Shown piece by piece: positions 3,857-30,888 of a stretch of DNA of 36,866 nucleotides; within the stretch, counting starts at the first letter, position 1, and every line of letters starts with the position of its first letter. Position numbers and translations under genes: made by a program. The DNA comes from a virus. The stretch spans positions 1-36,866 of the IMG/VR virus record IMGVR_UViG_3300020203_000047; one strand, 5' to 3'. The notes beneath the pieces were generated by a model. The model did not search any database. It saw only the letters and a program-made list of their open reading frames with translations, and was not told the DNA's origin.

Positions 3857-5896
3857 CTAATCCCGACCACGACGGTCGATCCAGCCTGCTGTCCCAAGGT
3901 TTCCGCCATTCGAGTTGGCGGAAACCTGAACGTAAATCTGCCCGCTTGTGTTGGTCGGAGGACCAATCTCGACACCGCCGTAGATGTAAATGCCGGTGCC
4001 CGCGCCATTTGAGGACGTGCCCCCTAAGACGCGCGAAAGCGCGGAGTTGCTGGCTGGCGCAACCAGTATCGTAGTGCCGGTGTTATTGACCGAGGATGAG
4101 TAGCCCTTAATCAGCGGCAACAGCGAAACGCCAGTGGGCACACTCAAGGTTCTCAGCGTCATCCCGCTCGTGCCGCCGAACGAAAAGTCGGTGACTTCGA
4201 GAGTGAAGAAATAATCTCCCGACTGCTGAAACGACGTCCACTGAGCAGATCCATTCGTTTTCATCGATCCAAGGCGGCGATAGTGCGTGTAGCCGGTCGG
4301 CAGCTTCGGCGCGCTCGTTGCCGTGTGAACGCCGCTCTGCGAGCCCGTCGTGTTGATGGCCGAGCCACCTTGCGTCGTCGCCAACTGGAATGCACCCGTC
4401 GTGAAGCCAGCCGCTATGACGAAGTAGCGCACGCCCGCCGTGAAGCCCGTCGGCAGCGCGCCGGTCGTCGTGAACACCACGCCCGATCCGATCTGTAGGC
4501 CATGGTACGCCCACGTGACGACGCCGGGGGTGGCGATAGTCATTGTTACAGTTGAGGACCGATCCGGCGATAGAGAGGTTAGGTAGTCAGAAACCAACGT
4601 GTCCGACCGCTGGATTTGATAGGTGTGATACCAAAGGTTGTTCGCGACGGTGCCTTCGTCGAGCGAGCCGTTGGCGGTTCCAACCGCCCACGCACTCGCC
4701 GTCTTGGTGTAATCCGTCGACACGACCATGCGCGCGGTCGCTGCGCTGTCGACGGTCTGGCAAGCCGTCACGCCGAACGTGGCGCTGGAGCCTGCTGTCG
4801 AGAGCGTGCAGCCGTAGAGGAAGCCCGGCATCGCTTGAACGATGGCTGCCTGCGTGGCGACCTTCGTGCTGGCGTCGTTGCTTGACTGCGAGGTCGCAGT
4901 GGTGCCGTTGGGCAGAGCAGTCGTGCCAGAGACAGCCGTACCGCTGCCTGCATAATAGGCAATCTCATTTGCGGTGCCGCTGTTGACCGTGCCCGAGCCA
5001 CCCGGCGCGGCCCAAGTACCATCACCTCGCCAGAACGTCGCGGCCGAAGCACTCGTTCCACTGTTCAGATTACCTACCGACAAGTTTCCTGTAACACCAG
5101 TGGTGAGCGGCAAGCCGGTCGCGCTCGTGAGTGTGCCAGAGGATGGTGTACCTAGTGCGCCGTTGAACAAAATCGGAGCGCCAGCCGAGCCGACGTTGAC
5201 GGCAAGGGCCGTCAACACGCCTGTTCCCGCGCCTGTCAAACCTGTGCTGATCGGCAGGCCGGAGGCGCTGGTCAGCGTGCCCGACGAGGGAGTTCCCAGC
5301 GCGCCATTGAACAGGACGGGTGCTCCAGCGGAGCCGACGTTGACGGCAAGGGCCGTTGCAACGCCTGTACCGAAGCCGCTGATACTTCCAAGAGGTAGCG
5401 CGCCGGTGACTGTCGTGGACAGGTCGACCTTGCCCCACGAAGGGGCCGCGCCCACGCCGCCAGACAGAAGCGCATTGCCCGTAGCGATGTCGGCGAGCTT
5501 CGCCAGCGTCGTGCTGCTGTTAGCGTAGAGCAAGTCACCGATGGTATAGGTGGCGAAGCCGGTGCCACCGTTGGCTGCGACCAGCGTGCCCGCGAGCGAA
5601 ATCGCACCCGTGCTGACTGCGCTGGGCGTGAGGCCAGTACTGCCTGCGCTGAACGATGCCACGCTGCTCGCCGTCGTGGGTACCGCAACACCACCAACGT
5701 AGATGCCAGTGGCATTGATCGTACCAGCACCCTTGTTGCCACCAGCAACAGACGAAGGCACGGTAACGCCTGTGCTCGAAGTGATCGGTGATATGGATGC
5801 ACCGTTCTGGGTCCAGGGACCTGGTACCGGTCCCGGCTGGGCGTGAGCCGCACTTGCTGCAAACAGAAACAGCAATACATTTCGGAGAAGTTTCAT
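3857..5896 (-). CDS. Large tail-fibre/decoration protein with a signal peptide and inserted module A (679 aa)
   Basis: I chose ATG 5896: AGAGG lies seven bases upstream, and the chain then begins with a Sec-type signal peptide ([20 protein letters not shown], probable cut after AHA). Upstream in-frame codons overlap the preceding gene. The body is Gly/Ser/Thr-rich and repetitive. Two ~47-aa repeats (core [11 protein letters not shown], then [16 protein letters not shown]) lie around bases 5100-5385, a pattern common in phage fibres. Residues 449-525 are module A. The C terminus ends in a short beta-rich domain ([16 protein letters not shown]), probably a head or trimer tip. The likely role is host-surface contact or virion decoration. 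The signal peptide is odd for a virion protein. Confidence 0.75.
4322..4552 (-). repeat. Module A copy 1 (in the signal-peptide fibre)
   Basis: This 231-bp coding module (77 aa) opens with [14 protein letters not shown], has [14 protein letters not shown] in the middle and closes with [11 protein letters not shown]. It has the same length and same key residues as copies in the collar fibre and in the small protein at 27.1-27.6 kb. The DNA has diverged, so this is an old protein-level relationship rather than a recent DNA repeat. Confidence 0.85.
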
Positions 5897-6228: not shown

Positions 6229-7656
6229 TCAGGTCTTGATGATCATGTTGGCTGTCAGCGACGGCTGCAGGATTGAGGCTGACGTGGTCGTAATTGTCAC
6301 CGAAGTGTGAACGTGAGCGTCGACGCTGAAAGCCGAAGCTGAACCCTGGTTACCTGCTGAACCGACATTTCCGTTGGCAGCACCTGTGCTACCGGTACCA
6401 GCAAAGGTCTTAGCCTCGACACCGCCCGTAGCTCCAAGCGCTTCGCCGTTCGGCAACATGCTAGCACTAGTCAGACGACCAGCTGCCGACGTCCCCATGG
6501 TATCGCTGCCAACGATAGTGCGACCACGTGCATCGGGCAGCGTGAACGTGCTTGTACCATTGCCGCAGCCATAAGGATTGAGGCGACAGGTCTGGACACC
6601 GGACTGGCTGCCAGCGGTGTTGACCGCAGCACCGCCAGGCGTGGCGCTCACCTGGAAGGTATTAGCTGCGAATCCAGCGGTGATAACGTAGTAGTTGGTG
6701 CCAACCGCAAGGTTGGTGGGCAGCGCGCCTGTGGTCTCGAACGACACCACGTCACCAATCACAAGCGGATGTGAATTCCATGTCACCACGCCTGGGCTGG
6801 CAATTGTGATGGTGACCGTAGCGGTTTCAGTGATGGCAGCAAACAGTGCTGCGTAGGTGGCACGCGATACAGCCGTGCCATTGCACAGCAGCCAACCTGA
6901 AGGAGCTGTGCGACCTGAAAACGGGAGTGGGCCTGTGCCAGACGGTGCTGAAGCCACAGCGCTCAAAGCAGCAGCGAGACGAAGAGGCGTTACAGCACTG
7001 TTGTTGTCGGTGCCCACTGTAACGGCAGATGCTGTCGTCGGCTGAATGCCCATGAGCTGGACGTTCGAACCTTGGACAATAAACTCAGCCACTTGACCAC
7101 TGAGCAACTCACCACCGATCAACGCACTGCCATCACGACGATAGATGGGCACAGCACCTGCACCGTAGTCGAGCGTGCTTGACCCGGTGTTATCATTGTC
7201 AATCAAGACGCGAAGCGGGGTGCCTTCGATGACTGAAGTGATCACAGGCAACATGCCGACTATGTATGAGTTGACGCTGCCAGTATCGACGGCGTAGTTA
7301 CTCGCCTGAGCCTGCGCCTGACTAGCCTGGAGGAAGGTGGTGAGGCCACCAGATGTAACCAGTTGGGCGAACAGGTCATTGGCCGTCCAGCTAAGCCCCG
7401 TTGTGCCCTCCTGGGCACGTTCAACTATGAGTGTATCACCAGTACGTGCAGTCATGAGCACGACCTCACGCAACAGCCCTGTGGCCGTATCCGTAAGCGT
7501 GCAAGGCACACCCTGACCGGGGGCAGGATTGGGAAACAGCGCACCACCACCTGATGCCACGGTGATCGTGGTAGTGATATTATTGATGGACCCTGCCAGG
7601 GTCGTCTGCGCGTTGTTGGCGAAGAGCAGCTCTTGGGAGTACGCGTTCACGGCCAT
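6229..7656 (-). CDS. Tail fibre with phage tail-collar domain split by module A (475 aa)
   Basis: The N-terminal ~200 residues include a beta-domain with ARTGDTLIVERAQEGT, typical of phage fibre attachment regions. Residues 245-275 start a tail-collar domain (PFSGRTAPSGWLLCNGTAVS, YAALFAAI). Module A (280-356) then interrupts it, and the collar resumes at ~359 with NPYGCGNGTSTFTLPDARGR. The chain ends in a Gly/Ala-rich tip with HVHTS, similar to collagen-like or metal-binding fibre ends. The likely role is receptor binding or short-fibre function at the baseplate. It is downstream of baseplate genes and upstream of two other fibre-type genes. Confidence 0.8.
   Translation of the reverse strand: MAVNAYSQELLFANNAQTTLAGSINNITTTITVASGGGALFPNPAPGQGVPCTLTDTATGLLREVVLMTARTGDTLIVERAQEGTTGLSWTANDLFAQLVTSGGLTTFLQASQAQAQASNYAVDTGSVNSYIVGMLPVITSVIEGTPLRVLIDNDNTGSSTLDYGAGAVPIYRRDGSALIGGELLSGQVAEFIVQGSNVQLMGIQPTTASAVTVGTDNNSAVTPLRLAAALSAVASAPSGTGPLPFSGRTAPSGWLLCNGTAVSRATYAALFAAITETATVTITIASPGVVTWNSHPLVIGDVVSFETTGALPTNLAVGTNYYVITAGFAANTFQVSATPGGAAVNTAGSQSGVQTCRLNPYGCGNGTSTFTLPDARGRTIVGSDTMGTSAAGRLTSASMLPNGEALGATGGVEAKTFAGTGSTGAANGNVGSAGNQGSASAFSVDAHVHTSVTITTTSASILQPSLTANMIIKT
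6589..6819 (-). repeat. Module A copy 2 (inserted in the tail-collar domain)
   Basis: This 231-bp module encodes residues 280-356. It begins TVTITIASPGVVTW, has FETTGALPTNLAVGTNYYV in the middle and ends NTAGSQSGVQT. It sits exactly between the two halves of the collar signature, so the insertion point is visible. Length is identical to the other two copies. Confidence 0.88.
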
Positions 7657-8734: not shown

Positions 8735-10396
8735 CTAGCCCTGATCCACGTCGATGCCACTAGACTCGGCAAAGAAGTATGATTCTGGATCGCCTTCAAC
8801 GATCACCGTACCTGCCACAGGAGGAGTAGATATACCGTTGATAGAAACGGCGAACACAAGTCGCGTCAGCAGCTCAGGCGCAAGCACCGGCGCGATAGCA
8901 GCACGAAACACTTCAGCTGCAGTGTCGAGGTTAATAGGCTGGCCGGCATAGATACTGTTGACGTAGTCAGCAACAGCAGGTCCTCCCAGCTGGGCCACAG
9001 CGGCAGGAGCCACGAAGTTCAACGACGACGTGTTCCAGGTTATAGCCATGGTCACCACCTGCTGAGGTGGATTTACGAACGGGATCACATACGAGTCGGG
9101 CCAGTCGTTGATAGTAACACTGAGGTTGCGTGGGTTTGGCGTTACGATACCGTCAGAAGTATATGTGAGCGCTGTCGTATCAAACAAGGCAATGCCAGCC
9201 ACAATGGACCCCAGTACCGTAGACGAGCCGGGAGTGACCATCTGCGCGGCTTTAAGGGTGGTACCGGTTGTACCAGCTACAGCCACGTACGTACCATTGT
9301 ATCCAGCAGGACTACTACCAACGATAGTGAACGTGCTACCTACGGTGATACCGTGCGATGCTCCAGTCGTGTATGTAGTTTCATTAGCCGACCAAGATTG
9401 CCCGGTCAGGTTACGTGACGAGAAGCGAGTGCCCAGGGAGAAGCTTTTCTCGTTGATTACCGCCAGGACGGCATACGAACCGTCGAACGTGCCAGGATCA
9501 ACAGCATCAATCTCAATGTTGTCCCCCTGGGCAAAACCGTGATTCAGAAAGGTGTCGACCACGCCAGGATTGGTACTGCTGATGTCTGATATGAACAGCT
9601 GTGATCCTGACAGATTATTTACGTCGAACAGCGCGGTCCAGATAGCATAGGCCACCTTGTAAGGATCGCCTCCACCGACAATTACCATCCATTTTCCATC
9701 GTCGCGCTGCTGGACAGCCACCAGTCTGGGCTGCACACCGCTTACGTTTCCTAACATGGTCCTCAGATAACGTGCCATGCCCTGCGAAGCTGCGAGGTTT
9801 GCCTGCAACACCCGCGAGCGATATGACTCTGCTGTTTCCGTTCCAGTGCCAGGCACACCCGCTTCGGAGTTGACAACAGTAAGTGTGATCGACGACGGCG
9901 GTGGGGTAACCAACTGAGTGACCGTACCAGGCGGCACTGCCCAGGAGCCTGACAGAGAAGCCAACGCAAACAACTGATCGGAGAGGCCATCAGTACCAAT
10001 GATGCCTCCGCTCTGCACCACGTACTGATACGTGCCGTCCGACACGATAAAGCCCTGTGTGATAACAAAGCCTGCTGGACCGCTGAACGTAAGCAGTACG
10101 CTGGTGTTGCTACCTACACCGAGCGGGATGCCTAGCATTTGCCCCAGCTGCGCCAGCAAGAAGTTGTTCGCACCGAGTGGAGTAAGCGAGTTGACAGTCT
10201 CCACGCGTGCCGAGTCGCACTCGACGATAGCAGCTACGTCGGTCGAGGAGATGTCCTCGATCAGCGAGCCCGGCAAGTTGGCGGTGTAGCCTGGGCGCAC
10301 CGCTGCCACCGACGCCAACAGCTGCGCCTGAATGGCTGCCGGTGTTTGGGGCTGAAGGCCGGCTGCAGTGATCACAACGGGAAGATTGTCAGCCAT
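8735..10396 (-). CDS. Baseplate J-like protein with two inserted beta modules (553 aa)
   Basis: Residues 1-265 follow the baseplate J/gp47 pattern. They contain LPGSLIEDISSTDVAAI near the start, NFLLAQLGQMLGIPLG, a beta-domain (FIVSDGTYQYVVQSGG) and the ESYRSRVLQANLAASQGM helix. Residues ~270-330 and 334-401 are FCCH-like modules (module B type). The J frame then resumes with PRNLSVTINDWPDSY and ends with LDTAAEVFRAAIAPVL, a gp47-like C terminus. J proteins form the wedge arms of the contractile baseplate. The gene follows a gp25-like gene. The insertions make it longer than Mu gp47 or P2 J. Confidence 0.85.
   Translation of the reverse strand: MADNLPVVITAAGLQPQTPAAIQAQLLASVAAVRPGYTANLPGSLIEDISSTDVAAIVECDSARVETVNSLTPLGANNFLLAQLGQMLGIPLGVGSNTSVLLTFSGPAGFVITQGFIVSDGTYQYVVQSGGIIGTDGLSDQLFALASLSGSWAVPPGTVTQLVTPPPSSITLTVVNSEAGVPGTGTETAESYRSRVLQANLAASQGMARYLRTMLGNVSGVQPRLVAVQQRDDGKWMVIVGGGDPYKVAYAIWTALFDVNNLSGSQLFISDISSTNPGVVDTFLNHGFAQGDNIEIDAVDPGTFDGSYAVLAVINEKSFSLGTRFSSRNLTGQSWSANETTYTTGASHGITVGSTFTIVGSSPAGYNGTYVAVAGTTGTTLKAAQMVTPGSSTVLGSIVAGIALFDTTALTYTSDGIVTPNPRNLSVTINDWPDSYVIPFVNPPQQVVTMAITWNTSSLNFVAPAAVAQLGGPAVADYVNSIYAGQPINLDTAAEVFRAAIAPVLAPELLTRLVFAVSINGISTPPVAGTVIVEGDPESYFFAESSGIDVDQG
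9194..9397 (-). repeat. Module B copy in baseplate J
   Basis: This module encodes about residues 334-401. Key residues are SWSANETTY, SHGITVGSTFTI, PAGYNGTYVAVAGTTG and VTPGSSTVLGSIVAG. A more diverged related unit precedes it in the protein (bases ~9407-9589; NHGFAQGDNIEI, GTFDGSYAVLAV). Together they form a tandem pair inserted in the J core. Confidence 0.8.
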
Positions 10397-12509: not shown

Positions 12510-13000
12510 CAGGGATTAACCTCAAACTGCTGCGAGGCCTCCCTGAACACCAGCGTCGACGAGGCAAAGTAGCCCTCGGCCAAGTTGATATTATAGCTGA
12601 CCAACCCCAAGGTGGAAGCCTCACCAAGGTCGACCTGAATGGGATAAACAAATTCGTTCGCCTTAGTTATCAAGGCCCGTACGAGACCGTTGTAACCCAC
12701 AGGCGCGCAACCACGAACGGTCAAAGCTAATGTATCCAACACGTTGAAACCATGAGGTTCCTCCGTGGTCGCTACAGCATACCCGTTCGCCCATGTTAGA
12801 GATTGAATCGGTATGGCACTGATCGATCCGATCAATGCTTTAGAAAACACCAGCGTTCCGTCCAGTGCGTAGAGGTTGAGGTACCAGCGGTTGCCGAAAA
12901 AACTCCACATCACGCTGGCTTGATACGTTTGACGATCAAGCTCAGGTTGGAAGGTGAAGACCTGATTCGGCGGCGGGTTAAACTGGATGAGCGTAGTCAT
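12509..13000 (-). CDS. Baseplate plug-like protein with module B insertion (163 aa)
   Basis: The first ~67 residues (FTFQPELDRQTYQASVMW, FFGNRWYLNLYALDGTLV) and the last ~27 (LAEGYFASSTLVFREASQQF) together match a ~95-aa phage family like the Pam3 gp18 baseplate plug. Residues 68-136 interrupt it with module B (PHGFNVLDTLALTV, PVGYNGLVRALI, LGEASTLGLVSY). The plug lies below the tube and holds the hub in the resting tail. ATG 13000 overlaps the upstream stop (ATGA). Confidence 0.72.
   Translation of the reverse strand: MTTLIQFNPPPNQVFTFQPELDRQTYQASVMWSFFGNRWYLNLYALDGTLVFSKALIGSISAIPIQSLTWANGYAVATTEEPHGFNVLDTLALTVRGCAPVGYNGLVRALITKANEFVYPIQVDLGEASTLGLVSYNINLAEGYFASSTLVFREASQQFEVNP
12593..12799 (-). 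repeat. Module B copy in the baseplate plug
   Basis: It encodes residues 68-136, the most diverged of the B copies. It keeps LTWANG, HGF, the P-x-GYNG turn and a final GLVSY strand. It splits an otherwise compact ~95-residue protein, so it must form an added surface domain. Confidence 0.7.
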
Positions 13001-16656: not shown

Positions 16657-18303
16657 TTAACCGGCCACAAAGTCGGTAACATTGATGTTGATGGTGATGC
16701 TTTCGAATCCGCGCAACGGTGTGAACGTAACGCTGAGACCATCGTACTTGCCGATGCGATAGTGGCTCGGGTTAGAGATGGAGTAGGGTACGAACGGTAC
16801 AGCGTTGACCACGACGTTGCCGGCGTAGGTCCCACGATCCAGCTCCAGCGCGAAGTCTGGACCGTTCAGCTCGGTCTGAATGACTTTGCCCAGGGCGAGG
16901 CCGTAAGTGATGGCGCTGCCGCCGACACCTGCCAGGACCTGCTGCAGGCGGTTGATGCCGTTCTGATCGTAATACAACGGGTTGATCGGTGTGTTCGACC
17001 CATTGATGATGGCGTTGGCCACGAACAGCGCGCCGTTGATCTGCATCCAGTCGACGCTGTACCAGTAGTTGAATGGCCGTCCATCCTTGACATGCCCCCA
17101 GAGAAGCATGGTGTTGGTGATACCACCCTCGGCACCAGTGCCGACGTAGTTGTCGCTCGACGTTTTCAGCGACGACAGCCGCGCTGCATTGCCCTTGATT
17201 GGAAACTCAGTCACGCCATAGAGATAGCTGAAGGCAAACGGCGTCACCTTGTTGGTCGTGCTCGGATCGTAGTTGAGCGTGACCCAGAAGTCAGCAGCGT
17301 GATCGAACTGTGCTGCTGGAGGAGGATCGGAAACATAGAGGCTGGCCACAAGCACGCCTTGGACGCTGTCGGCACCCGGATCAGCAGGCACAGCGTAAAT
17401 GAGCGTGCTGCCAGTCGTACCATTCAACGCCAAGAAGGTACCGTTGTATCCATCTGGCGTGAAGCCGGTGCTGCTGAAGTACTGCCCAGGGATGATGCCG
17501 TGAGCGCTCGTGGTCGTGAGCGTGACTCGACCGCCTGAGTAGGTGGCATTGGTGATCACGTTGGTGGGCCACGCGCCTACGAACGGGGCTTCGACGAACG
17601 CTTCGACGCACTTCATCGTGGCTTCATAGACGCCTCTATTCTGGAGCGACGTCGTCACAAAGAAGTAGGTCTTGGCGGTCGTGCTCTCGAAGCCTCCGAG
17701 GAAGGTCAGGAAGGTGCTGTCACCGTCCCAATTGCGGGGGACGAGATAGCTGTAGAAGATCTGACCGTTCGCCGTGATGAACGCAGACAGGTTGGCCACG
17801 CCAGTCGAAGGCTCGCCGGCACCAAGCTCCAGCACGTAGACGCCCTGCTGGGCTCCCTGCGTGAAGAAGGTCGTTGCCATCGACACCAGCTCCGCGCTGT
17901 TGCGCGGAGTGTAGGTGCCTGCCGTTGTCTGAGCGCCAGGATTAGCAGTGAGATAGTAGGTGAACGTGGCAGCGCCGGTAGCCATCGCAAGGTAGGTGCC
18001 GTTGTAGGCAGCAGGCACGACGTCTGCGATGGTAACGGTGAACTGCTGACCCGCAGCGATGCCGTGGTTGGCAGCAGCCGTCGCCGTCACCTGGCCACCA
18101 AAGGTGGAAGCCCAGGCGACGGAGGTGAGGCTGAGAGGCGTTGCCAGCAGCGGCGTGAGATCGCTGAGCTGGGTGAGTAGACTGTACTCACCCACCCCAA
18201 GCGTGGTGCCACCCTGGCTGATCAACGCTCCCGTCTTCTGGAGCGCTGCCGGAAGCGGAGCCTGCGTCTGGGTGACGTTGACGACAACAATCGGGTTAGC
18301 CAT
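16657..18303 (-). CDS. Tail sheath protein with two inserted module B domains (548 aa)
   Basis: The N terminus has TQTQAPLPAALQKTGALIS and the C-terminal third carries the sheath core. This includes NYWYSVDWMQINGALFVANA, NGINRLQQVLAGVG, and the terminal strand RGFESITININVTDFVAG that links neighbouring subunits. Residues 62-132 and 250-321 are module B copies, each with the P-x-x-YNGT turn, and should lie on the outer face. The sheath contracts to drive the tube into the cell. It has a very strong AAGGAGGG before ATG 18303, as expected for an abundant protein. Confidence 0.88.
   Translation of the reverse strand: MANPIVVVNVTQTQAPLPAALQKTGALISQGGTTLGVGEYSLLTQLSDLTPLLATPLSLTSVAWASTFGGQVTATAAANHGIAAGQQFTVTIADVVPAAYNGTYLAMATGAATFTYYLTANPGAQTTAGTYTPRNSAELVSMATTFFTQGAQQGVYVLELGAGEPSTGVANLSAFITANGQIFYSYLVPRNWDGDSTFLTFLGGFESTTAKTYFFVTTSLQNRGVYEATMKCVEAFVEAPFVGAWPTNVITNATYSGGRVTLTTTSAHGIIPGQYFSSTGFTPDGYNGTFLALNGTTGSTLIYAVPADPGADSVQGVLVASLYVSDPPPAAQFDHAADFWVTLNYDPSTTNKVTPFAFSYLYGVTEFPIKGNAARLSSLKTSSDNYVGTGAEGGITNTMLLWGHVKDGRPFNYWYSVDWMQINGALFVANAIINGSNTPINPLYYDQNGINRLQQVLAGVGGSAITYGLALGKVIQTELNGPDFALELDRGTYAGNVVVNAVPFVPYSISNPSHYRIGKYDGLSVTFTPLRGFESITININVTDFVAG
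17341..17556 (-). repeat. Module B copy 2 in the sheath
   Basis: It encodes residues 250-321: NATYSGGRVTL, SAHGIIPGQYF, PDGYNGTFLALNGTTG, then ADPGADSVQGVLVAS. It is closest in pattern to the J and decoration-protein copies (paired GTTGSTL and dPG-x-S-x-x-G-x-L). Confidence 0.82.
17908..18120 (-). repeat. Module B copy 1 in the sheath
   Basis: It encodes residues 62-132: VAWASTFGGQVT, NHGIAAGQQFTV, PAAYNGTYLAM and ANPGAQTTAGTY. Its downstream edge coincides with a perfect 8-bp DNA hairpin (17890-17909, CTCCGCGC-TGTT-GCGCGGAG). Confidence 0.82.
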
Positions 18304-20707: not shown

Positions 20708-21186
20708 CAGTCGACCCATGCTTTGAATGAGCCTTCAAACAGGCCCGTATCGATGAAAGAAGGTCTCGGCGCGCGTTTGGCGTAAGGATGCTTGAAGCGC
20801 TTAGAGTGGCCTTCGAGAGATGCTTGGGTGGGGACACCCGGTATCCCGAGCGACTCCATTTCTTTTTTCATGAGAAAATCTCTGAAGCGCTCCTCGATCT
20901 TGGAGCCAGCTTCGCCCAGGGCGTCAATGCTCGTGGGAGCTCCCATGTCGATGTTTTCAATTGCACCAGCCAAGGAGTTAACCAAGTCCTCAGCAATCTC
21001 GTCACCATGAAGCTCGAAGAAAACCTCCATGATGTGATATTTCTCTTCCAGGATCGCAGCTACGTCACCAGTGGTGCTGCTACCCATCTGCTTAGGCTTG
21101 CGACGACCGGCCTCGCGGTAGGACGCACCATCCGCATACGGCAAATCCATGACACCCAGGAAAAGAGTGCTCACGATATCCCCCAT
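20707..21186 (-). CDS. Head-tail connector or tail-completion protein (159 aa)
   Basis: The chain has MDLPYADG near the N terminus. A helical ATGD-type middle (TTGDVAAILEEKYHIMEVFF, LVNSLAGAIENID) follows, with F-R-D-F-L, then VPTQASLEGHSKRFK and a final PSFIDTGLFEGSFKAWV. The last block, a basic loop followed by an S-F-I-D-T-G-L-x-x-x-S-F-x-A-W-V strand, is typical of HK97 gp10-like neck proteins. The start may be ATG 21186 or GTG 21174. The latter overlaps the upstream stop as GTGA and has GGGGGA at good spacing, giving 155 aa. Confidence 0.65.
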   Translation of the reverse strand: MGDIVSTLFLGVMDLPYADGASYREAGRRKPKQMGSSTTGDVAAILEEKYHIMEVFFELHGDEIAEDLVNSLAGAIENIDMGAPTSIDALGEAGSKIEERFRDFLMKKEMESLGIPGVPTQASLEGHSKRFKHPYAKRAPRPSFIDTGLFEGSFKAWVD

Positions 21187-21662
21187 GCGCTCGGGCCGAA
21201 GTCCTGAACTAACTCAAGGTATTGTCGTCCCCACGGCGTCTTCAGCCTCTGTAGGTCGCTCAGGGTGAGCGACTCAAAGGCCTTCGGCACCACGAGGCTC
21301 ACGTTGGTGGCCTCGTCGCCGGTGCTCTGGACCACGCCCGACGTGAAGCCGCTCAGGTTGAGCGTGGTCCGCATGCAGGCAAAGAACTTCATCGGAGGGT
21401 TACTACCTTCGATGACTTCTGCACCAGGCAGGTCCTGAGCGTAATTGACCAGGCGGTCGCCGGCCAGGTTGTAGACGGCGAGACCATAGATCGACGTGTA
21501 CGGGCTGCGTGGCGCGCAGACAGCCTTCAGCTGCTTGTTGACCGTCGCCAGCGCGACCTGGTAGCTCCACTGGATGTACACCGAGTTGTCCGGCAGCAGG
21601 GCACTGTTGATACCCATGATGGCACGGATGAACTCGATGTAGCAGGCGACGGTCGGACCCAT
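21171..21662 (-). CDS. Head-completion/connector protein (163 aa)
   Basis: An N-terminal helix (CYIEFIRAIMGINSALLPDN) is followed by beta-rich parts (YIQWSYQVALATVNKQLKAV, YGLAVYNLAGDRLVNYAQ). It ends with LQRLKTPWGRQYLELVQDFG. It lies among connector genes just after the capsid locus, and length fits a gp6- or gp16-like head-completion protein that extends the portal. Family not named with certainty. ATG 21662 follows the preceding stop by two bases. Confidence 0.6.
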   Translation of the reverse strand: MGPTVACYIEFIRAIMGINSALLPDNSVYIQWSYQVALATVNKQLKAVCAPRSPYTSIYGLAVYNLAGDRLVNYAQDLPGAEVIEGSNPPMKFFACMRTTLNLSGFTSGVVQSTGDEATNVSLVVPKAFESLTLSDLQRLKTPWGRQYLELVQDFGPSAWGIS

Positions 21663-21664
21663 AA

Positions 21665-22204
21665 CTAGCGTCGCTTGCCAGGGCCTTTGGCGGTACGCTC
21701 GGTGCCAGGCGTTGCGACGTCGTTACCTGATACGCGCAGGCCTTCGGCCACCGGCTTCTCGTCGCCTTCATGAACCATGCCGCCCGACTTCTCTTCGATG
21801 AGCGTGGTCTCGAAATTGTCCAGGGTGCCAGGAGCGGCTTCTTCCATGACCTGGCTGGAAGCGAGAGCTGCCTGCTGACGCACTTCGTCGCCGCGCAGCT
21901 TGAGCACACCCTTGTTGTGATCGAGCACGCGCTTGATGGCGGTCACCGGCACAGGCTTGTCGACGCTGAGGATGTAGGGAATGGTCGTAGCGTAGGAGCG
22001 CTTGCTGCCGATCTCATCGATCTTGATCGAGCCGTACTTGGACATCTGTTCGACGATAGAGTCGACGTCCTGCTGGGCAAGGTCCTTCGGAACTCGCACC
22101 TGACGACCGCGCGCAATGTTGAGCTGAATGTTCTTGGTGACTTCGGGGACGCGCAGGTTGGCGATCCGATTCTGCATGGTAGCGTTAGCGATATAAAGAT
22201 TCAC
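21665..22204 (-). CDS. Conserved head-region protein (179 aa), unknown function
   Basis: It starts at GTG 22204 behind a very strong AGGAGGG. The first ~110 residues form a compact-looking domain with MNLYIANATMQNRIANLRVP, NIARGRQVRVPKDLAQQD, SIVEQMSKYGSIKIDEI and SVDKPVPVTAIKRVL. The tail (Glu/Gly/Lys-rich, to GPGKRR) looks disordered. Proteins with the same YIANAT-x-Q-N opening recur after capsid genes of contractile-tailed phages. It follows the capsid terminator hairpin, so its expression depends on readthrough or a local promoter. Confidence 0.62.
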   Translation of the reverse strand: MNLYIANATMQNRIANLRVPEVTKNIQLNIARGRQVRVPKDLAQQDVDSIVEQMSKYGSIKIDEIGSKRSYATTIPYILSVDKPVPVTAIKRVLDHNKGVLKLRGDEVRQQAALASSQVMEEAAPGTLDNFETTLIEEKSGGMVHEGDEKPVAEGLRVSGNDVATPGTERTAKGPGKRR

Positions 22205-22237
22205 GGCTTCCCTCCTGAGGAATTCGGTTTGTGAGAA

Positions 22238-22264
22238 AACCCCAGGGGATGCTCCCCTGGGGTT
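22238..22264 (-). terminator. Strong intrinsic terminator or attenuator after the major capsid gene
   Basis: On the minus strand AACCCCAGGGGA (22264-22253) pairs perfectly with TCCCCTGGGGTT (22249-22238) over 12 bp with a 3-base loop. TTTTCTC follows. Sitting between capsid and connector genes, it should cut transcription so that capsid transcripts exceed tail transcripts, unless antitermination acts. Confidence 0.85.
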
Positions 22265-22291
22265 CGCGGGTGGTCTGGAGCTGCTAAGCTC

Positions 22292-23311
22292 CTAGAACTC
22301 CATGCTGATGATGGTGATCGCCTCGGGGCGAACGCCCCAGCCCGAGGTGAGACGCCATTCGAGCAGCAGGTCGGTGGCACCACCCGGCAGCGGAGAAGTC
22401 AGCTCCTTGGGGGCCGCCATGTCGGCATACATCGTCACGCAGGCGTCGTTGCCAGGCGACACACGAGCGAACTCGTTAGTGTCGATGCCTTCGACGTTCT
22501 GCTTCTCGACTTCAGGCATGGTGATGATCACCGCGTCCGTTCCGCCGTCGCCCTTGCCGATCAGCGTGTCGTCATACGACCACGTCAGCATGTCCTTGTT
22601 GCGCTTCAGGATTTCCTCGAAGAGGCCCTTGGTCGTTTCGCTGCCGGCTCCGGTGCGCTGGAACTGGCTGAGCTGGACGACGTCGGGGTACTCGAGGAGG
22701 CCCAGGATGCGCTGGGGACCGAGGATGGTGAACTTGCGTCCGATGCCGAGCTGGTTGGTCCGGCTCTTCATGTTCAGCACAGTCGTGAGCAGGAAGAACG
22801 CCATCTCGCCGTTATCGTAGGTCTGAACGGTGTCGTTACCGTTCGAGTCGGGCGGAAGGTTGATCGCCGTGGCACCTGCGCAGTTGAGCAGGCCCTCGCC
22901 GTTCTGGGGATTGGCACCGTACAGCAGGAGGTTGCGAGCCTGCTGGAAGTGCGCCTGACGCAGGCCGCGACGGTAGAGATCGGGCAGCGACGAATTCCAA
23001 CGCGCAGCGGCGTTGACGTCGTGATGATCGTACTCGGCGCGGTTACGGAGCAGGTAGGTGGGAGTAGACAGCTGGCTGAACGCGATGTTCACGCCCGGCA
23101 GCTGGTTGTAGGCGCTCTGGCCGCCCGCGATGGAGGTGCGGAGATCGACGCGGCTCATGTAGACGTAGAGATCGTCCTCGGCGAGCCGCACGCGCGGCTG
23201 GCCCCCTTCGAGCGTATCGAAGGCACCCGACGCCTGCGCGTACGGGAGAACCAGTCCAGGCTCGAAGAAGTTCGGGCTGACCTGGACGAATGCGGGAGCG
23301 TTGACAGCCAT
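22292..23311 (-). CDS. Major capsid protein, DUF2184-like HK97 fold (339 aa)
   Basis: Features of this capsid group are the N-arm region (SPNFFEPGLVLPYAQASGA) and the DLRTSIAGGQSAYNQLPG loop. The spine helix with DLYRRGLRQAHFQQARNLLL, the FFLLTTVLNMKSRTNQ helix and a C-terminal LEWRLTSGWGVRPEAITI strand also fit. It forms the icosahedral shell. It follows a decoration protein and a protease/scaffold gene. ATG 23311 has AGGAAAGGG upstream, and a strong hairpin follows the gene. Confidence 0.88.
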   Translation of the reverse strand: MAVNAPAFVQVSPNFFEPGLVLPYAQASGAFDTLEGGQPRVRLAEDDLYVYMSRVDLRTSIAGGQSAYNQLPGVNIAFSQLSTPTYLLRNRAEYDHHDVNAAARWNSSLPDLYRRGLRQAHFQQARNLLLYGANPQNGEGLLNCAGATAINLPPDSNGNDTVQTYDNGEMAFFLLTTVLNMKSRTNQLGIGRKFTILGPQRILGLLEYPDVVQLSQFQRTGAGSETTKGLFEEILKRNKDMLTWSYDDTLIGKGDGGTDAVIITMPEVEKQNVEGIDTNEFARVSPGNDACVTMYADMAAPKELTSPLPGGATDLLLEWRLTSGWGVRPEAITIISMEF

Positions 23312-23326
23312 GTTGGCAGCCCTTTC

Positions 23327-24208
23327 CTAAATAAGGATGATCGCTGCGGCACCATCACGGTCCCACGTAGCGAATCCGGTTTCAGAATCGTAGTCGACGA
23401 TCATGCAGTTGAAAGCCTGCACGCGCAGGATACGGCACGGGAGAGCTCCGCCGCCTGCTTTGAGGGTGCCCAGGACGGTGCTCGAACCTGGATCGACCAG
23501 CTTGACCGCGACGAGGGTGTCGGTGGCCGTGCCGGTGATGGCCACGTAGGTGCCGTTGTAGGCAGCCGGCGTGGAGCCGCTGATGGTGAACGAACCGCCG
23601 ACATCGACCGTGTGATTGGTCGTCGTCTGGAACGTCACCTGGCCGCCGCCGGTCGACGCCCACGACTGGGCGAGCAGCGCGTTGGCCGGGAAGGCAACCT
23701 CGTACTGCACCAGCATCTGCGCGTCGTACTCCCACGAGACCGGCGTGGTCTCGATGTCGTCGCCCAGGGAGAGCAGGGCCGCGTCCATCTTGACCGCGAC
23801 ACGTGCGCCGGAACCGAGGCGATAGAAGTTGACGTTGCCGCCAGCCGACTGCAGCGGCACCGGCGACTGCGGCGTGTTGATCGCAGAGTAGTTCTGATCG
23901 AACACACTGAAGCCGCACAGGTTCTTCGCCGTGCTGCCACCGGTAACGTTGGTGGCACGACCGACCTTGGGGCCGAGCATGACGTCGGGCGTCGTGGCCG
24001 GCGAGCCCTGAGGAGCCGGCACGTCGGCGTAGATGCCGACACCACCCCACATCGGCAGCGTCTCCGTCGTGGCCAGTCGGCCACCAGAGAGGCTGTTACG
24101 GATGGCCGGGTCCGGCCAAGCCGTACCCTGCATGAGGCCATCCCACTGGACGCCGAACGTACCCGGCGCGTTGACCGAGACGTTCGGGTTGATCGTAATT
24201 CCGCTCAT
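23327..24208 (-). CDS. Head decoration-type structural protein with module B (293 aa)
   Basis: Residues 1-181 have TLPMWGGVGIYADVPAP, LGPKVGRATNVTGG, then GFSVFDQNYSAINTPQSPVP and NFYRLGSGARVAVKMD. This head-protein pattern recurs beside DUF2184 capsids. Residues 182-254 are module B (SWASTGGGQVTF, PAAYNGTYVAIT, LVDPGSSTVLGTLKAG). The short C-terminal strand (RILRVQAFNCMIVDYD) completes the original fold. It probably sits on the capsid outside, with the module pointing away. AGGAAGGA precedes ATG 24208. Confidence 0.75.
   Translation of the reverse strand: MSGITINPNVSVNAPGTFGVQWDGLMQGTAWPDPAIRNSLSGGRLATTETLPMWGGVGIYADVPAPQGSPATTPDVMLGPKVGRATNVTGGSTAKNLCGFSVFDQNYSAINTPQSPVPLQSAGGNVNFYRLGSGARVAVKMDAALLSLGDDIETTPVSWEYDAQMLVQYEVAFPANALLAQSWASTGGGQVTFQTTTNHTVDVGGSFTISGSTPAAYNGTYVAITGTATDTLVAVKLVDPGSSTVLGTLKAGGGALPCRILRVQAFNCMIVDYDSETGFATWDRDGAAAIILI
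23447..23665 (-). repeat. Module B copy in the head decoration protein
   Basis: It encodes residues 182-254. It shares P-A-x-YNGTYVA and PGSSTVLG with the baseplate J copy, linking head and tail proteins of the same phage by one module. The flanking halves read as one continuous domain. Confidence 0.85.
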
Positions 24209-24235
24209 TTGATGATCCTTCCTTTCTGGAGGGCG

Positions 24236-25144
24236 TTAGCGATTGGAGCCGGGCTTGGTGCCCTCGAAAGAACCCGCTTGCAGCGGGGGCATGAACGAGC
24301 GCATCCACGAGATGGGCTCGCCGATCCACTTGGTCTCGTTGTGGCCGCTGTCGAGGCGAACCGAGACCTTCTGCAGGCGACCAGCCGGAACCTTGGCCGG
24401 ATCGCTGGCGCTCTTGAGGGCGTCTTCGAGCACCTGGCTCTCGATGCCGGCGAAGATGCCTTCGTCCACAGCGGCGACGCTGATCTCGGCTTCCTTCCAC
24501 CGCTTCGAATGCGGCTTGAGGTCGACGATGATGCGCTTGCGATAGTCGATCAGGCTCTCACCCGGTCCCGGTCGAGGCGCGTTGCCACCCATCGCAGCGT
24601 AGACAGCGTCGGCGCGGGCCTGGACACGACCATAGCTGGCAATGTCGGCGTCGGGCTGACGAGTCTGATTGGCGACGAGGGCCTGGAGAGTTTCGAGCTG
24701 TTTCTTGATGTCGATGCCGAGGCCCAGGGCCGCAGCTGCGTCAGCACGAGCCTTCTCGTTCTTTTCCTCGTCCTCGGTGTCGGCGAGCTTCTTCTCGCTC
24801 TCATCCTCGGCGTCCTTGCGGGAGTCAGCAGCCTTCTTCTTGGCGTTTATCTCGCCGGCCTCTTCGAGCGCGTCGCAGTACACCTTCTCCTCGGTGTCCA
24901 TGCGCTCCTTGAAGTCCTCATTGGACTCGCCGTCCTTGCGCTCGCCAAACTTGAAGTTGTCGGCGCGACCGCGTGCGTCGGCACGAGCCGCTTCCTCCTT
25001 CTTAATGTCGTCCTCGTCCATGCGCGTGGCCAAGCGGCCAAGCGTGGTGCCGAGAGCCGTCATGCCCTCGCTGAGGCCTGCGAGCTTCTTCGCGTCCTCA
25101 GCACGTGCGTCGTCCATCATCTTCTTCAGTTCTTCAGCGGTCAT
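24236..25144 (-). CDS. Internally initiated scaffold protein (302 aa), in frame within the protease gene
   Basis: In-frame ATG 25144 is preceded by AGAGGAGA seven bases upstream, an excellent ribosome site in the middle of the longer gene. The product would begin MTAEELKKMMDDARAEDAKK and holds the charged, coiled-coil-rich scaffold half. The last ~140 residues carry DIKKQLETLQALVANQ and a C-terminal domain. This copies the lambda C/Nu3 logic, where scaffold is made in excess from an internal start in the protease gene. Nesting is inferred from the start site alone. Confidence 0.6.
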   Translation of the reverse strand: MTAEELKKMMDDARAEDAKKLAGLSEGMTALGTTLGRLATRMDEDDIKKEEAARADARGRADNFKFGERKDGESNEDFKERMDTEEKVYCDALEEAGEINAKKKAADSRKDAEDESEKKLADTEDEEKNEKARADAAAALGLGIDIKKQLETLQALVANQTRQPDADIASYGRVQARADAVYAAMGGNAPRPGPGESLIDYRKRIIVDLKPHSKRWKEAEISVAAVDEGIFAGIESQVLEDALKSASDPAKVPAGRLQKVSVRLDSGHNETKWIGEPISWMRSFMPPLQAGSFEGTKPGSNR

Positions 25145-26260
25145 GTCGCTGTCTCCTCTGGTTGCAGTTACGCCTACAGGATCGCCACCCTTGTCCCAAA
25201 CCCCCTGCCAACAGATGGCGATATGATCCAGCAGGCCGGGTTTTCCTTCAATCAGGAACTTGTGACCGTCGACTTCCGACATGCTGCCGGGAGCCTCGTG
25301 CCATACGACGCCAGGGCTGGTGGAGAGCGTCTGGCTCTCCATCATTGAGGCTGCCTTGTCGTCGTATATCTTGGCAATGGCCCAGACCTCAGTGCCCACG
25401 ATGTAGGGCAGAAAGACGGTGCCGATGCCTCGGTTTGCGAACTCCTCTGAGTCCACCATCATGCCCTCGGGATGCTCCAGCACCACCGGGAGGCCATTGC
25501 AGCGGGCCAGGAATTCGTCGTTGAGATAGAAGGATGGATCGCGATAGACATATTCAGCGTCACGCTCGATGAGCTTGCCACTGAGTGTATCGACCTTTGT
25601 GCCCTTCTTTATGTCGTCCTTGGTAGCCTTCGCACCCAGCTTGCGGCTGCGGTAAGCATACTCAGTGCCGGTGATACGAATAGCAAAGAGCGTGAACTTC
25701 TCGTAGCGCTGGGGACTGCTCAGCTCGCCATCGCGGATGGCCTGCGCTACCTCCAGCTCGTTCATGTTCCCAGCGCGGCGCAGTGCAATGGCGCAACCAG
25801 GATGCAGCGGCTGCGGCGGGCTGCCCAGGGGAGCCCATGCGTATCCGGTGTGCTCGTCGCACAGGATAGGGGTGAACTCCTCGACATCTTTTTCAATGAA
25901 CGTCGTGAAGTCCACCTGGTCGGGCGCGATTGGATCGGCTGGCGGTGATGCCGTTGCCGCGTTGTGGATCGCGTCGCCCAGAGTCTGCGGAGTCATCGCC
26001 TGCTCAGGTGCAGGGGCAAGCGCACTCGTCCCTGGGCTAGAGGCGATGCTGCGGGTTAGATAGGTGAGGTTCTTCTCCTTGGCCTTGTAGCCAGCCTCCT
26101 CAAGCGTCTCGCGAATAGCTGCGCCGATGACGTCTTCACCATCCTCCACACGCCCGCCTGGCACGCACCAGGTGTCAGGATAGTCGCCACCAGGCCCGCG
26201 CTTCAGAAAGAGAGCGTTGCCCTTGGTGGAAACAAGGAGAATGCCGGCAGCACGAATCAT
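24236..26260 (-). CDS. Nudix - DUF2213 prohead protease - scaffold fusion (674 aa)
   Basis: Residues 1-155 are a Nudix domain with a near-canonical box: G36-x5-E42-x7-R50-E51-x-x-E54-E55-x-G57. It has an Ala/Pro-rich insertion at ~70-112. Residues ~165-365 match DUF2213, a phage head-maturation protease group (YRSRKLGAKATKDDIKKG, LPVVLEHPEGM, a TLSTSPGVVWHE strand around S313 and LLDHIAI with H346). Residues 373-674 are charged, coiled-coil-rich scaffold. It lies two genes upstream of the capsid gene, as expected for a protease/scaffold. It overlaps its upstream gene by ATGA. Fusing a pyrophosphohydrolase to a capsid protease is odd; Nudix function is undetermined. Confidence 0.78.
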   Translation of the reverse strand: MIRAAGILLVSTKGNALFLKRGPGGDYPDTWCVPGGRVEDGEDVIGAAIRETLEEAGYKAKEKNLTYLTRSIASSPGTSALAPAPEQAMTPQTLGDAIHNAATASPPADPIAPDQVDFTTFIEKDVEEFTPILCDEHTGYAWAPLGSPPQPLHPGCAIALRRAGNMNELEVAQAIRDGELSSPQRYEKFTLFAIRITGTEYAYRSRKLGAKATKDDIKKGTKVDTLSGKLIERDAEYVYRDPSFYLNDEFLARCNGLPVVLEHPEGMMVDSEEFANRGIGTVFLPYIVGTEVWAIAKIYDDKAASMMESQTLSTSPGVVWHEAPGSMSEVDGHKFLIEGKPGLLDHIAICWQGVWDKGGDPVGVTATRGDSDMTAEELKKMMDDARAEDAKKLAGLSEGMTALGTTLGRLATRMDEDDIKKEEAARADARGRADNFKFGERKDGESNEDFKERMDTEEKVYCDALEEAGEINAKKKAADSRKDAEDESEKKLADTEDEEKNEKARADAAAALGLGIDIKKQLETLQALVANQTRQPDADIASYGRVQARADAVYAAMGGNAPRPGPGESLIDYRKRIIVDLKPHSKRWKEAEISVAAVDEGIFAGIESQVLEDALKSASDPAKVPAGRLQKVSVRLDSGHNETKWIGEPISWMRSFMPPLQAGSFEGTKPGSNR

Positions 26261-27069
26261 TCAATCACCAAATAGAAGTTTCCACCGAGCTCGCGTTTTC
26301 CAACAACAATTTTTGCATCAGAAGCGCCAACAACACCTGGAGACTTATAAACGTCTCCAATCGTATGAGCCTTGAAGATAACCTCAGTGACTTTGACTTC
26401 TTTTTTGTTGGCATCACCCCGAGCCTTCGCCTCAACCGCAGCATCGAACTTCGCTCGCGCCTCTGGATCGGTCGGGGGCGTGAGGCCAGCGGGGATGGCG
26501 TCGCCACGCCCCCGATCCAGGTTCGTGAGCAGCCTGCCTTCCCACAAGTCGTCGCTCACCTTGCCGACACCAGGAATTTCAATCGGAGGGCTAAACTTGA
26601 CACGATACATTTTGCCTTCTTTGGCAATGATCATGCCCTCCTTGCCATAGAACTCCTTCATGCCGCCACTGCTCTTGATGCGGACGCGGGTGCCGGAGTC
26701 CATGGCGTCACCAACAGCGGTGATAGAGGACACCGCAGGCGTAGCGGACGTGAGGGTTTCGTCTCCAGCATCAGACCTCGCAACCAGCGCCTTCGCGGTC
26801 TTGCCAAGGGTGTTGAGACTGGCGATCATGCTGTCGAGTGTATTCACCTTGGGCTCCTGTGAGTCGGGCCGACCGTACCCGGTCCAATGCTTGCCGGCTG
26901 CGATGTTGTCTGCGGCAGCCTTGGCGCGTCGCATGGCTTCGCTCTCGGTCTTGCACCAATAAAACTTTTGAGCAACGCGGAAGATAAACGGCGTCGACAC
27001 ATCCTCAGGATCGCTCGACTTGTGGACCGTGATCCCTTTGCCGAAGTCTTTAATAAGGGTCTCAGACAT
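26257..27069 (-). CDS. Head-region protein with a KOW-like segment (270 aa), unknown
   Basis: The N-terminal ~75 residues have FIFRVAQKFYWCKTESEAMR and KAAADNIAAGKHWTGYGRP, with aromatic-rich strands. Residues ~126-160 (GTRVRIKSSGGMKEFYGKEG, then KMYRVKFSPP) look like a small SH3/KOW-type barrel. The C-terminal part has VIFKAHTIGDVYKSPGVVG and ends in a hydrophobic strand. I do not recognise a family. It is between the small module-A protein and the protease fusion. AGGA precedes ATG 27069, and it overlaps the next gene by ATGA. Confidence 0.58.
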   Translation of the reverse strand: MSETLIKDFGKGITVHKSSDPEDVSTPFIFRVAQKFYWCKTESEAMRRAKAAADNIAAGKHWTGYGRPDSQEPKVNTLDSMIASLNTLGKTAKALVARSDAGDETLTSATPAVSSITAVGDAMDSGTRVRIKSSGGMKEFYGKEGMIIAKEGKMYRVKFSPPIEIPGVGKVSDDLWEGRLLTNLDRGRGDAIPAGLTPPTDPEARAKFDAAVEAKARGDANKKEVKVTEVIFKAHTIGDVYKSPGVVGASDAKIVVGKRELGGNFYLVIE

Positions 27070-27077
27070 GTCAATTC

Positions 27078-27647
27078 CTAACGGTAGAGAGAGGTGATAT
27101 CGGCTGCAGCACCGCCTGCAGCGATCACCAGCAGGCCTTGTGCGAACGAGGCTCCGTTCACTCCAGAAGGGATGTTCCCCTGGGCGAGCGTGCTATAGGT
27201 GCCGATCAGGTTGTAGAGCGCGTAACCGGTGTGCACGCCACTCTGCGATCCACTCGTGTTCACAGCTGCACCGCCAGCAGAGGAGCTGACCCGGAAGGTT
27301 CCGGCTGTGAGCCCGGTCGCGAGGACGTAGTACGTCGTCCCTGCAGTCAATCCGGTCGGCAACGCTCCAGTGGTCTGGAACTTGATGCGTTGGCCAGCGC
27401 TGAAGCCGTGGTCAGCCCAGGAGATGACACCGGGTGTGGCGATGGTCATCGTAACCGTCGCGCTCTTGGCGTCCCACACAGCTGCGCTCGACGTGGTGCC
27501 ACCGGTGTTGACGGTGAGCCCACTGAACACGCCCGAAGCGTTCTTGGCCTGAAAATATCCGTTGACCGCCATGTTCAAAGGCGTGCTGCCAGCGATCCAG
27601 ACCGGAATAGCAGCAGCCGGATTGCTTTGTGCGTTAGGGTAGCCCAC
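27078..27647 (-). CDS. Small head-region protein carrying module A (189 aa)
   Basis: The flanks (NGYFQAKNASGVFSGLTVN, then YNLIGTYSTLAQGNIP and GLLVIAAGGAAADITSLYR) form a ~110-aa beta-rich unit. Residues 64-140 insert module A ([14 protein letters not shown] ... GSQSGVHT). It starts at GTG 27647 in a TAGTG overlap with the membrane ORF. The host protein may be a small surface or fibre-type component, but the family is not recognised. It is in the head operon far from the fibre genes, which shows module A is not confined to fibres. Confidence 0.65.
   Translation of the reverse strand: MGYPNAQSNPAAAIPVWIAGSTPLNMAVNGYFQAKNASGVFSGLTVNTGGTTSSAAVWDAKSATVTMTIATPGVISWADHGFSAGQRIKFQTTGALPTGLTAGTTYYVLATGLTAGTFRVSSSAGGAAVNTSGSQSGVHTGYALYNLIGTYSTLAQGNIPSGVNGASFAQGLLVIAAGGAAADITSLYR
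27228..27458 (-). repeat. Module A copy 3 (in the 189-aa head-region protein)
   Basis: This 231-bp unit encodes residues 64-140, with [19 protein letters not shown] in the middle. Same length and end motif as the fibre copies ([11 protein letters not shown]). Confidence 0.87.
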
Positions 27648-27811
27648 TAGAGCAACCCGGCGCGACGTGCTATCGCGAGCGCGGCTAGCACAATAATGAG
27701 ACCCTGGATCAACTGCACGATGAGCGGCTTCACAGGCAGCTTCTCAGCAGCCCATAGGAAGAGGCCCATAACGATCAGGATCAGAATAATAACTACGATC
27801 AAAGATTCCAT
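27647..27811 (-). CDS. Two-helix small membrane protein (54 aa)
   Basis: ATG 27811 (GAGGG upstream) starts a chain of two hydrophobic helices, SLIVVIILILIVMGLFLW and LIVQLIQGLIIVLAALAIA. They are separated by a short EKLPVKP loop, and the chain ends RRAGLL. The stop overlaps the next GTG start (TAGTG), which supports coding. Small two-TM proteins of this kind recur in head operons of proteobacterial phages. Function is unknown; an inner-membrane role is likely. Confidence 0.68.
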   Translation of the reverse strand: MESLIVVIILILIVMGLFLWAAEKLPVKPLIVQLIQGLIIVLAALAIARRAGLL

Positions 27812-27853
27812 CAGGCTGCCCTCATCGCTGCTATTGCGTTCGGATATTCCATC

Positions 27854-28693
27854 TCAATTCTCCATCTTTGCTTTGGCTGCAGCCAGGGCGGAGCGACCCT
27901 TCTCGGTGACCATGGCGTCGGGCAGAGCCCTCACGCTGTAGATGTATCGATAGAAGCAACGGCAGAACGGGAACTCGCCGGGCTGCTCGATCTCATCGGT
28001 GTACTTCGAGCCGGCCTTCTTGACGTAGCCCTTCTGCATCGCCCAGCTGTCGCGTACCAGATAAGGCAGCTTCTCCGATTCAATCTCGCGGTCCTTGTGC
28101 TCCTTGCGGTAGTCGTATCCAGCCTGGTGGAAGTGACTCCTCCACACCGCTGCGATGGCACCGCCGCCAACCGCGATCACGCTGTTGATCGCTGACTCCA
28201 GCTTGTGGCCCTGGTCAATCAGGACACGGCGCTCTCGAAACTTGAGGCCGCTCAAGCTCTTCCTGATCTTCTCCGACTCTTCTCCACTCTTCTGGTCGGT
28301 GCCACCCTTCGGAATGGACGTGGCCCAACCATTGAACCGGCGCATGGTGGCCGCGATCTCCTCGTCGTGGTTCAGCTTGATCAGCGAAGCGTTCGCCATG
28401 ATGCGGCGATCCAGCTCAGCCCTCAGCTGAGGCTTCATTCTATCCAGCGTGAACTTCGGCACGCCTGGATGCTTGCTGAGCACCCCACCCTTCTCGATCA
28501 TGCGCTTGTAGATCGCTTTCATGGCGTCGGCGATCATGCGTTCCATCTTCTGGGAAGGCGTCATGGATGCGGCTGCGGCAGCACGGAGCTTCGCATCCCA
28601 GTACGCCAACGCCTCGGAGCTGTCGTATCCGTTGGAGCTGAAATACGCCATTGCCTCCTTTAAGACGGAGTCGAAATCTTTTTGATCGGCCAT
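27854..28693 (-). CDS. Minor head protein, Mu F-like head morphogenesis family (279 aa)
   Basis: The helical N-terminal half (DQKDFDSVLKEAMAYFSSN, MIADAMKAIYKRMIEKGG) is followed by a beta-type core with KFRERRVLIDQGHKLESAI, AVWRSHFHQAGYDYRKEHKD and LPYLVRDSWAMQKG. The end EQPGEFPFCRCFYRYIYS is the hallmark Cys-x-Cys strand of Mu F-like proteins. These bind the portal and are ejected or remain in the connector. It directly follows the portal gene and one small ORF. Strong context support. Confidence 0.78.
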   Translation of the reverse strand: MADQKDFDSVLKEAMAYFSSNGYDSSEALAYWDAKLRAAAAASMTPSQKMERMIADAMKAIYKRMIEKGGVLSKHPGVPKFTLDRMKPQLRAELDRRIMANASLIKLNHDEEIAATMRRFNGWATSIPKGGTDQKSGEESEKIRKSLSGLKFRERRVLIDQGHKLESAINSVIAVGGGAIAAVWRSHFHQAGYDYRKEHKDREIESEKLPYLVRDSWAMQKGYVKKAGSKYTDEIEQPGEFPFCRCFYRYIYSVRALPDAMVTEKGRSALAAAKAKMEN

Positions 28694-28902
28694 TAGGACC
28701 GCCTAATCACCTTATGAGCAGCAGCCAGGCTATCACAGTACGCATCGACTGCGTCCTTGATCTTAGCGCGAGCGCATTCAGATCTACCCCAATCACCAAC
28801 GATGCATGCAGCCTGAAATTGATCCATGCCCTCGGAGAAGATGTCCTTGGCACGCGATGCCGATGCTACGTCAGCAGTCACTTGCTCCAGGCTACTGGTC
28901 AC
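28693..28902 (-). CDS. Small protein between portal and minor head genes (69 aa), unknown
   Basis: It starts at GTG 28902 in a GTGA overlap with the portal stop and ends in a TAATG overlap with the next start. Tight coupling on both sides supports a real gene. The chain is helical (LEQVTADVASASRAKDIFS, RAKIKDAVDAYCDSLAAAHK) with two further cysteines in ACIVGDWGRSECAR. No family recognised. It could be a connector-assembly helper. Confidence 0.58.
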   Translation of the reverse strand: MTSSLEQVTADVASASRAKDIFSEGMDQFQAACIVGDWGRSECARAKIKDAVDAYCDSLAAAHKVIRRS

Positions 28903-30443: not shown

Positions 30444-30637
30444 TAGGCTCTACCCTCGCACGGCTTGGCAAGCAGCGAACACGCCTGGCCTTCCATTGCA
30501 ATTGCCTCGACAGGCGCACGATGGCTGATCAAGCCTAGCGCCTGGTCGCAGCGCACCTGCTCAAGAGCAGCCTCGTATAGCGTCCAGGTCGAATAGAACC
30601 TGGTGTTATCGCCCAGGAGGATCGAACGGAAGTTCAT
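30443..30637 (-). CDS. Small protein between terminase and portal (64 aa), unknown
   Basis: ATG 30637 has GGGAGAG six bases upstream, so I prefer it to the in-frame GTG 30712, which adds 25 residues. The chain is MNFRSILLGDNTRFYSTWTL and then a helix YEAALEQVRCDQALGLISH. It ends in a polar tail and overlaps the portal start as TAATG. No family recognised; the location suggests a packaging or portal accessory. Confidence 0.55.
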   Translation of the reverse strand: MNFRSILLGDNTRFYSTWTLYEAALEQVRCDQALGLISHRAPVEAIAMEGQACSLLAKPCEGRA

Positions 30638-30888
30638 GCTGTTCTCTCCCTTCAGGATGATGCGGCCCGCTCGACGTTCACTCGGGCTAAGGATGGTCAC
30701 GGTCGATGCCACTCAGAACGCTGCGCGAGCAAGCGTCTGGGCCTAAGGGTCGCCACCGCTACAGAAGCGCCTATCTCTATCCACCCAACCACATCATTTC
30801 AGCTTGCCATCGGCAGCATCGACGAGGACCGGTGCGCTCGCCATACCACTCTGGGTTTACTTGGTAAGCAGTGTCTGTCGATGGCAAT
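30638..30888. other. Gap between small portal-side ORF and terminase
   Basis: About 250 bases without a convincing gene, if the short start at 30637 is right; 176 if the GTG at 30712 is used. No strong hairpin, tRNA or repeat was seen. A promoter for portal and head genes could lie here, but no convincing -35/-10 pair was found. Confidence 0.4.

Follow-up and report, generated by a model that had tools for sequence, protein, structure and literature searches.

A mobile small beta domain inserted in collar, fibre and head-cluster proteins of a contractile-tail phage

We analysed a 36,866-base viral contig (hereafter the window) and found that a 77-residue segment shared by three of its proteins, here called module A, is a real mobile insert domain, comparable in kind to phage Ig-like domains and the barrels of endosialidases. 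Judged by anatomy alone, module A is very probably an autonomous small domain that has been inserted at loops or joints in a wide range of phage structural proteins. The window carries sheath, baseplate hub, baseplate J, portal and terminase genes, which identify a contractile-tail phage, and nearly all of its long genes lie on the minus strand. The three genes originally predicted to carry the 77-aa module were confirmed, all on that strand (Table 1). For the smallest of them, described in that prediction as encoding a head-region protein, the location holds by gene order, and the protein is a putative virion component.

Table 1. Coordinates of module A, module-B-type segments, collar halves and module A host genes in the window.
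Feature	Position	Strand	Remark
Fibre gene with module A	3857..5896	-	679 aa counted from ATG; a TTG start at 6184 would lengthen it
Module A in fibre	4322..4552	-	empty-site relatives L111-L113
Collar fibre gene	6229..7656	-	475 aa
Collar domain, second half (residues 357-385)	6502..6588	-	alignment to intact collars; second PF07484 stretch
Module A in collar fibre (residues 280-356)	6589..6819	-	empty-site relatives exist
Collar domain, first half (residues 243-276)	6829..6930	-	PF07484, E 5e-16 for whole protein
Module-B-type segment, baseplate J-like protein, second copy	9194..9403	-	
Module-B-type segment, baseplate J-like protein, first copy	9410..9595	-	most divergent
Module-B-type segment, protein weakly similar to Pam3 baseplate plug	12590..12808	-	
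Module-B-type segment, tail sheath, second copy	17344..17553	-	
Module-B-type segment, tail sheath, first copy	17902..18126	-	kinship to A suggestive
Module-B-type segment, gene adjoining major head protein	23450..23671	-	PHROG family about 80 aa shorter
Small head-cluster gene with module A	27078..27647	-	189 aa; gene order same in L106
Module A in head-cluster protein	27228..27458	-	empty-site relatives L105-L107

Some further features of the phage were observed. Contigs from other metagenomes (L102-L104 and L149) are 99.8-99.9% identical to the window over 24459-30644 and 20950-26171, so close relatives of the same phage have been sampled repeatedly. The head-cluster protein encoded by 24236-26260 (-), which weakly resembles head maturation proteases, has a NUDIX domain (phrog_1198, E 3e-15) at its N-terminus, and the same fusion is present in L106, L150 and L153. 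The N-terminus of the fibre encoded by 3857-5896 (-) resembles a secretion signal, which is unusual for a phage fibre; a module-free relative of the head-cluster protein, in L105, also has a signal-like start, MKKLLLALMLLLGPVSLASAQ.

The three copies of module A run over 77 aa without gaps or stops and carry the motifs first reported for them (TVT-x-TIA-x-PGV and others). Pairwise protein identity is 60-62% and DNA identity 60-63%; with the collar copy as query, the other two were recovered at E 7e-25 and 2e-26, which excludes chance resemblance. Pairwise dN was 0.30-0.40 and dS 1.5-1.9, giving a ratio of about 0.16-0.25. At identical residues the same codon was used in 16-18 of 45-46 cases, compared with 16.5-17.8 expected from random draws on the phage's codon usage; for one pair the values were 18/46 and 17.8. 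Because synonymous codons have been randomised in this way, the copies are old, and neither recent copying nor conversion is seen. In a tree with few resolved forks, the collar copy was nearest to collar copies of other phages, and the head-cluster copy was nearest to modules in other proteins. Recent copying of module A within the window's genome was considered and ruled out by this tree placement together with the randomised codons. By these comparisons, module A is under purifying selection and has long been kept. The original prediction of old, selected copies with low DNA identity was thus borne out by the dN/dS ratio and the random codon sharing. The identical length of 77 aa also holds in all three copies but is not diagnostic, since the commonest length among 108 full-length relatives is 75 aa (45 cases), and 23 of them have 77 aa.

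Module-free homologues exist for all three host proteins, and they lack exactly the module A segment. For the fibre, homologues without the module were found in three phage records (L111-L113) and homologues with it in L110. For the head-cluster protein, homologues lack it in L105-L107 and carry it in L108/L109; these module-free relatives came from viral contigs, the phage records yielding none. The gene order in L106 (portal, head morphogenesis, module-free head-cluster protein, protease-like gene) is conserved, so the missing segment there is a true empty site. The boundaries are sharp: conservation drops from about 3.4 bits at either terminal residue of module A to below 1 bit two to three residues outside. 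As befits a mobile insert, the module has module-free homologues of its hosts and occurs in several unrelated ones.

The collar fibre shows the insertion most directly. Pfam Collar (PF07484) matches this protein in two stretches flanking module A, at 58.8 bits against a cut-off of 24, and intact collar homologues exist, in agreement with the predicted splitting of the collar domain. The same site carries module A in other phages. In L018 two collar genes stand side by side, one with module A and the other with the short loop GTTF instead. On the tree, collar insertions required at least 9 changes, 2 of them forced by well-supported branches. That they all go back to a single event is neither shown by these sequences nor rejected (AU p 0.139).

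Module A is widespread. In one scan with one query, at least 146 loci were found in viral contigs, of which 80 were kept. One scan of bacterial and archaeal genomes gave at least 35 loci, ranging from Pseudomonadota to Acidobacteriota, Chthoniobacter, Planctomycetaceae and two archaeal bins; many of these may be prophages or phage contigs in bins. Among phage records, 27 of 50,697 matched. Cultured phages with a module-bearing tail protein include Sinorhizobium phage phiLM21, Bradyrhizobium phage ppBdUSDA122-1 and phage LE3, which infects the saprophyte Leptospira biflexa. Masking module A leaves the proteins that carry it at the viral and phage-record loci in 24 groups with no detectable kinship, so that the module is found far outside any one family. 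Among its partner domains are Collar, tail tube, nozzle, SU10 adaptor, Gp10_C, pectate lyase, CBM 5/12, collagen, C1q and S74 chaperone; a few of these matches are weak. Two hosts have cellular-type domains. One is a large PA14 protein from Chthoniobacter flavus, in which module A occurs four times (L120:2219-8230), and the other is a TadE/G-VWA protein of a Methyloceanibacter bin (L130:2960-4984). These are not obviously phage proteins and are rare among module A hosts.

Structure models bear out the view of module A as a separate compact domain. The module alone is modelled as a confident beta domain (mean pLDDT 86), and a model of the collar fragment predicts both collar halves and the module well but not the tip. 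In fold searches the FCCH domain of UBA1 matched with probability 0.72 and TM 0.54 for module A alone, and with probability 1.00 and E 5e-3 in the collar context. Endosialidase NF (3ju4) was matched with the collar model (probability 0.85, E 0.05) and was not listed with the module alone; a capsule depolymerase matched with probability 0.97. All PDB fold matches had E above 0.001, with weak to moderate scores.

Family models gave no clear match. Seven of 48 module A members touched Pfam End_beta_barrel (best E 1.3e-4) and two touched the E1_FCCH model (E 0.013). Ig-like, PKD and similar Pfam models likewise gave only Ig_7 at E 0.03 (2/48) and PKD_6 at E 0.068 (1/48). On the window, PF12195 and PF16190 did not match the module A copies, no NCBIfam model matched the module, and a PDB sequence search with its profile returned no match up to E 1. 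PF12195 matched elsewhere in L082 at about 21 bits against a curated cut-off of 35, and hhalign aligned module A to the endosialidase barrel at E 0.05 over just 19 columns. On these searches, module A has no family model of its own in Pfam or NCBIfam, its kinship to PF12195 and PF16190 lying below the cut-offs.

The window also holds six segments of a second type, module B, with HG..G and YNGTY-like motifs. One lies in the 293-aa product of the gene adjoining the major head protein, which a PHROG family of 211 positions matches end to end, so that about 80 aa of the protein are extra. Comparison of the two modules gave an hhalign probability of 42-50% and pairwise E of 2-3e-4, values no more than suggestive of homology. 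In the collar protein of L151/L152 (L151:1472-3127), whose neighbour genes are as in the window, module A occupies its usual site and a whole module B is nested in a loop of A, a clear case of domain-in-domain building in virion proteins. It is possible, though rather doubtful, that A and B form one superfamily of mobile insert barrels serving as a particle-wide toolkit (in this phage, three A and six B segments across fibres, sheath, baseplate and head cluster), which would stack by loop insertion into branched multi-barrel arms like the collar{A{B}} arrangement of L151.

Module A probably has an E1-FCCH/endosialidase-barrel-like fold. In the collar fibre it would fill the loop between the collar halves and protrude from the fibre, and it may equip the particle with a binding face of low specificity and general use, most likely through weak adhesion to surface glycans. 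We favour this reading over the others, tentatively, and hold the anatomy and the adhesive role taken jointly to be somewhat short of an even prospect. Hosts of the module include collars, spikes and carbohydrate-binding modules. Module A is probably not a strain-specific host-range determinant, since the phages in which it stays 50-70% identical infect very different bacteria. The same high conservation is equally compatible with a structural role, in which the barrel, with no ligand outside the particle, would be a spacer or stabiliser adding bulk, rigidity or subunit contacts to virion parts. Such a role is a serious contender, given less weight than adhesion: the module is under purifying selection, it also serves in tail-tube, nozzle and adaptor-like proteins, for which contact with the host is not required, and close homologues work without it. 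Adhesion agrees better with the module's position in loops of collars and spikes and with its match to the fold of a glycan-binding barrel.

The module might instead be a tolerated passenger that spreads by recombination, its ends splicing well into loops, at little benefit to the phage. Module-free host proteins do exist, and the nesting of one module in another shows how easily insertion is tolerated, but a dN/dS of about 0.2 with saturated synonymous sites speaks of long-lasting selection and makes a passenger improbable. That the segment is native to each protein, as a fixed architecture or a chance resemblance, could draw on the collar site being fixed across many phages and on the single origin that was not rejected. 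It is contradicted by the 60% identity that proteins with no other kinship share across 77 residues, by an empty collar beside a filled one in one contig, and by the empty fibres and head-cluster proteins, and we regard it as extremely unlikely.

The original prediction saw in module A a mobile surface-domain family used on head and tail and a candidate for a new virion-decoration system. What stands is an autonomous domain inserted in many unrelated proteins, found in tail proteins and in a protein encoded in the head gene cluster. Neither of the outcomes named as refuting that prediction came about, since module A is a separate domain in the models and is not confined to one family. The idea of a new system, with the copies acting together or forming something dedicated, is unsupported; fold and promiscuous insertion match known phage insert barrels and Ig-like domains, and a few cellular-type hosts occur. 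Filled and empty relatives at the collar, fibre and head-cluster sites make the barrel's effect on adsorption and stability directly testable.

By fold, the highest-scoring PDB match to module A, at weak to moderate strength, is the E1 FCCH domain (PF16190), ahead of the glycan-binding barrel of endosialidase NF; the phage context implies no ubiquitin-like chemistry. Literature searches for FCCH in a phage context returned only ubiquitin papers, FCCH with prophage returned none, and neither did a separate search on endosialidase. Weakly similar proteins of Vibrio phage MZH0603, Nostoc phage Nsp-JY18 and Microcystis phage Mel-JY33 carry the database name 'FCCH domain ubiquitin-activating enzyme E1', a fold label that is likely misleading. 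The boundaries now given to module A are clear enough for building a profile and for correcting misleading 'ubiquitin-activating enzyme' labels on phage proteins.

The endosialidase barrel (PF12195) is comparable to module A in that it, too, is a small beta barrel set within a different domain, in this case of a phage tail spike, the K1F barrel lying within the span of the propeller match; the two share the HGL..GD.V.F motif, and the collar model gave the weak to moderate fold match described above. K1F endosialidase binds polysialic acid at three sites, one of which is the beta barrel, also a hotspot of host discrimination (PMC12632334). Module A differs in scoring below the Pfam cut-off, in having its own conserved TTGALPT and GSQSGTHT motifs and in its many unrelated hosts. 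Phage Ig-like domains, too, are promiscuous small beta domains found in different virion proteins (Fraser et al. 2006, as cited in PMC13370021), and display on phage K1F has demonstrated a role in adhesion for some of them (PMC13370021). Unlike them, module A has another nearest fold and often sits in a loop of another domain rather than being just appended. Its distribution is also akin to phage domain mosaicism, in which tail fibres, spikes and baseplate proteins generally shuffle their domains (PMC10684548); the main text of that study does not mention FCCH, and module A is here given boundaries, empty sites and nesting.
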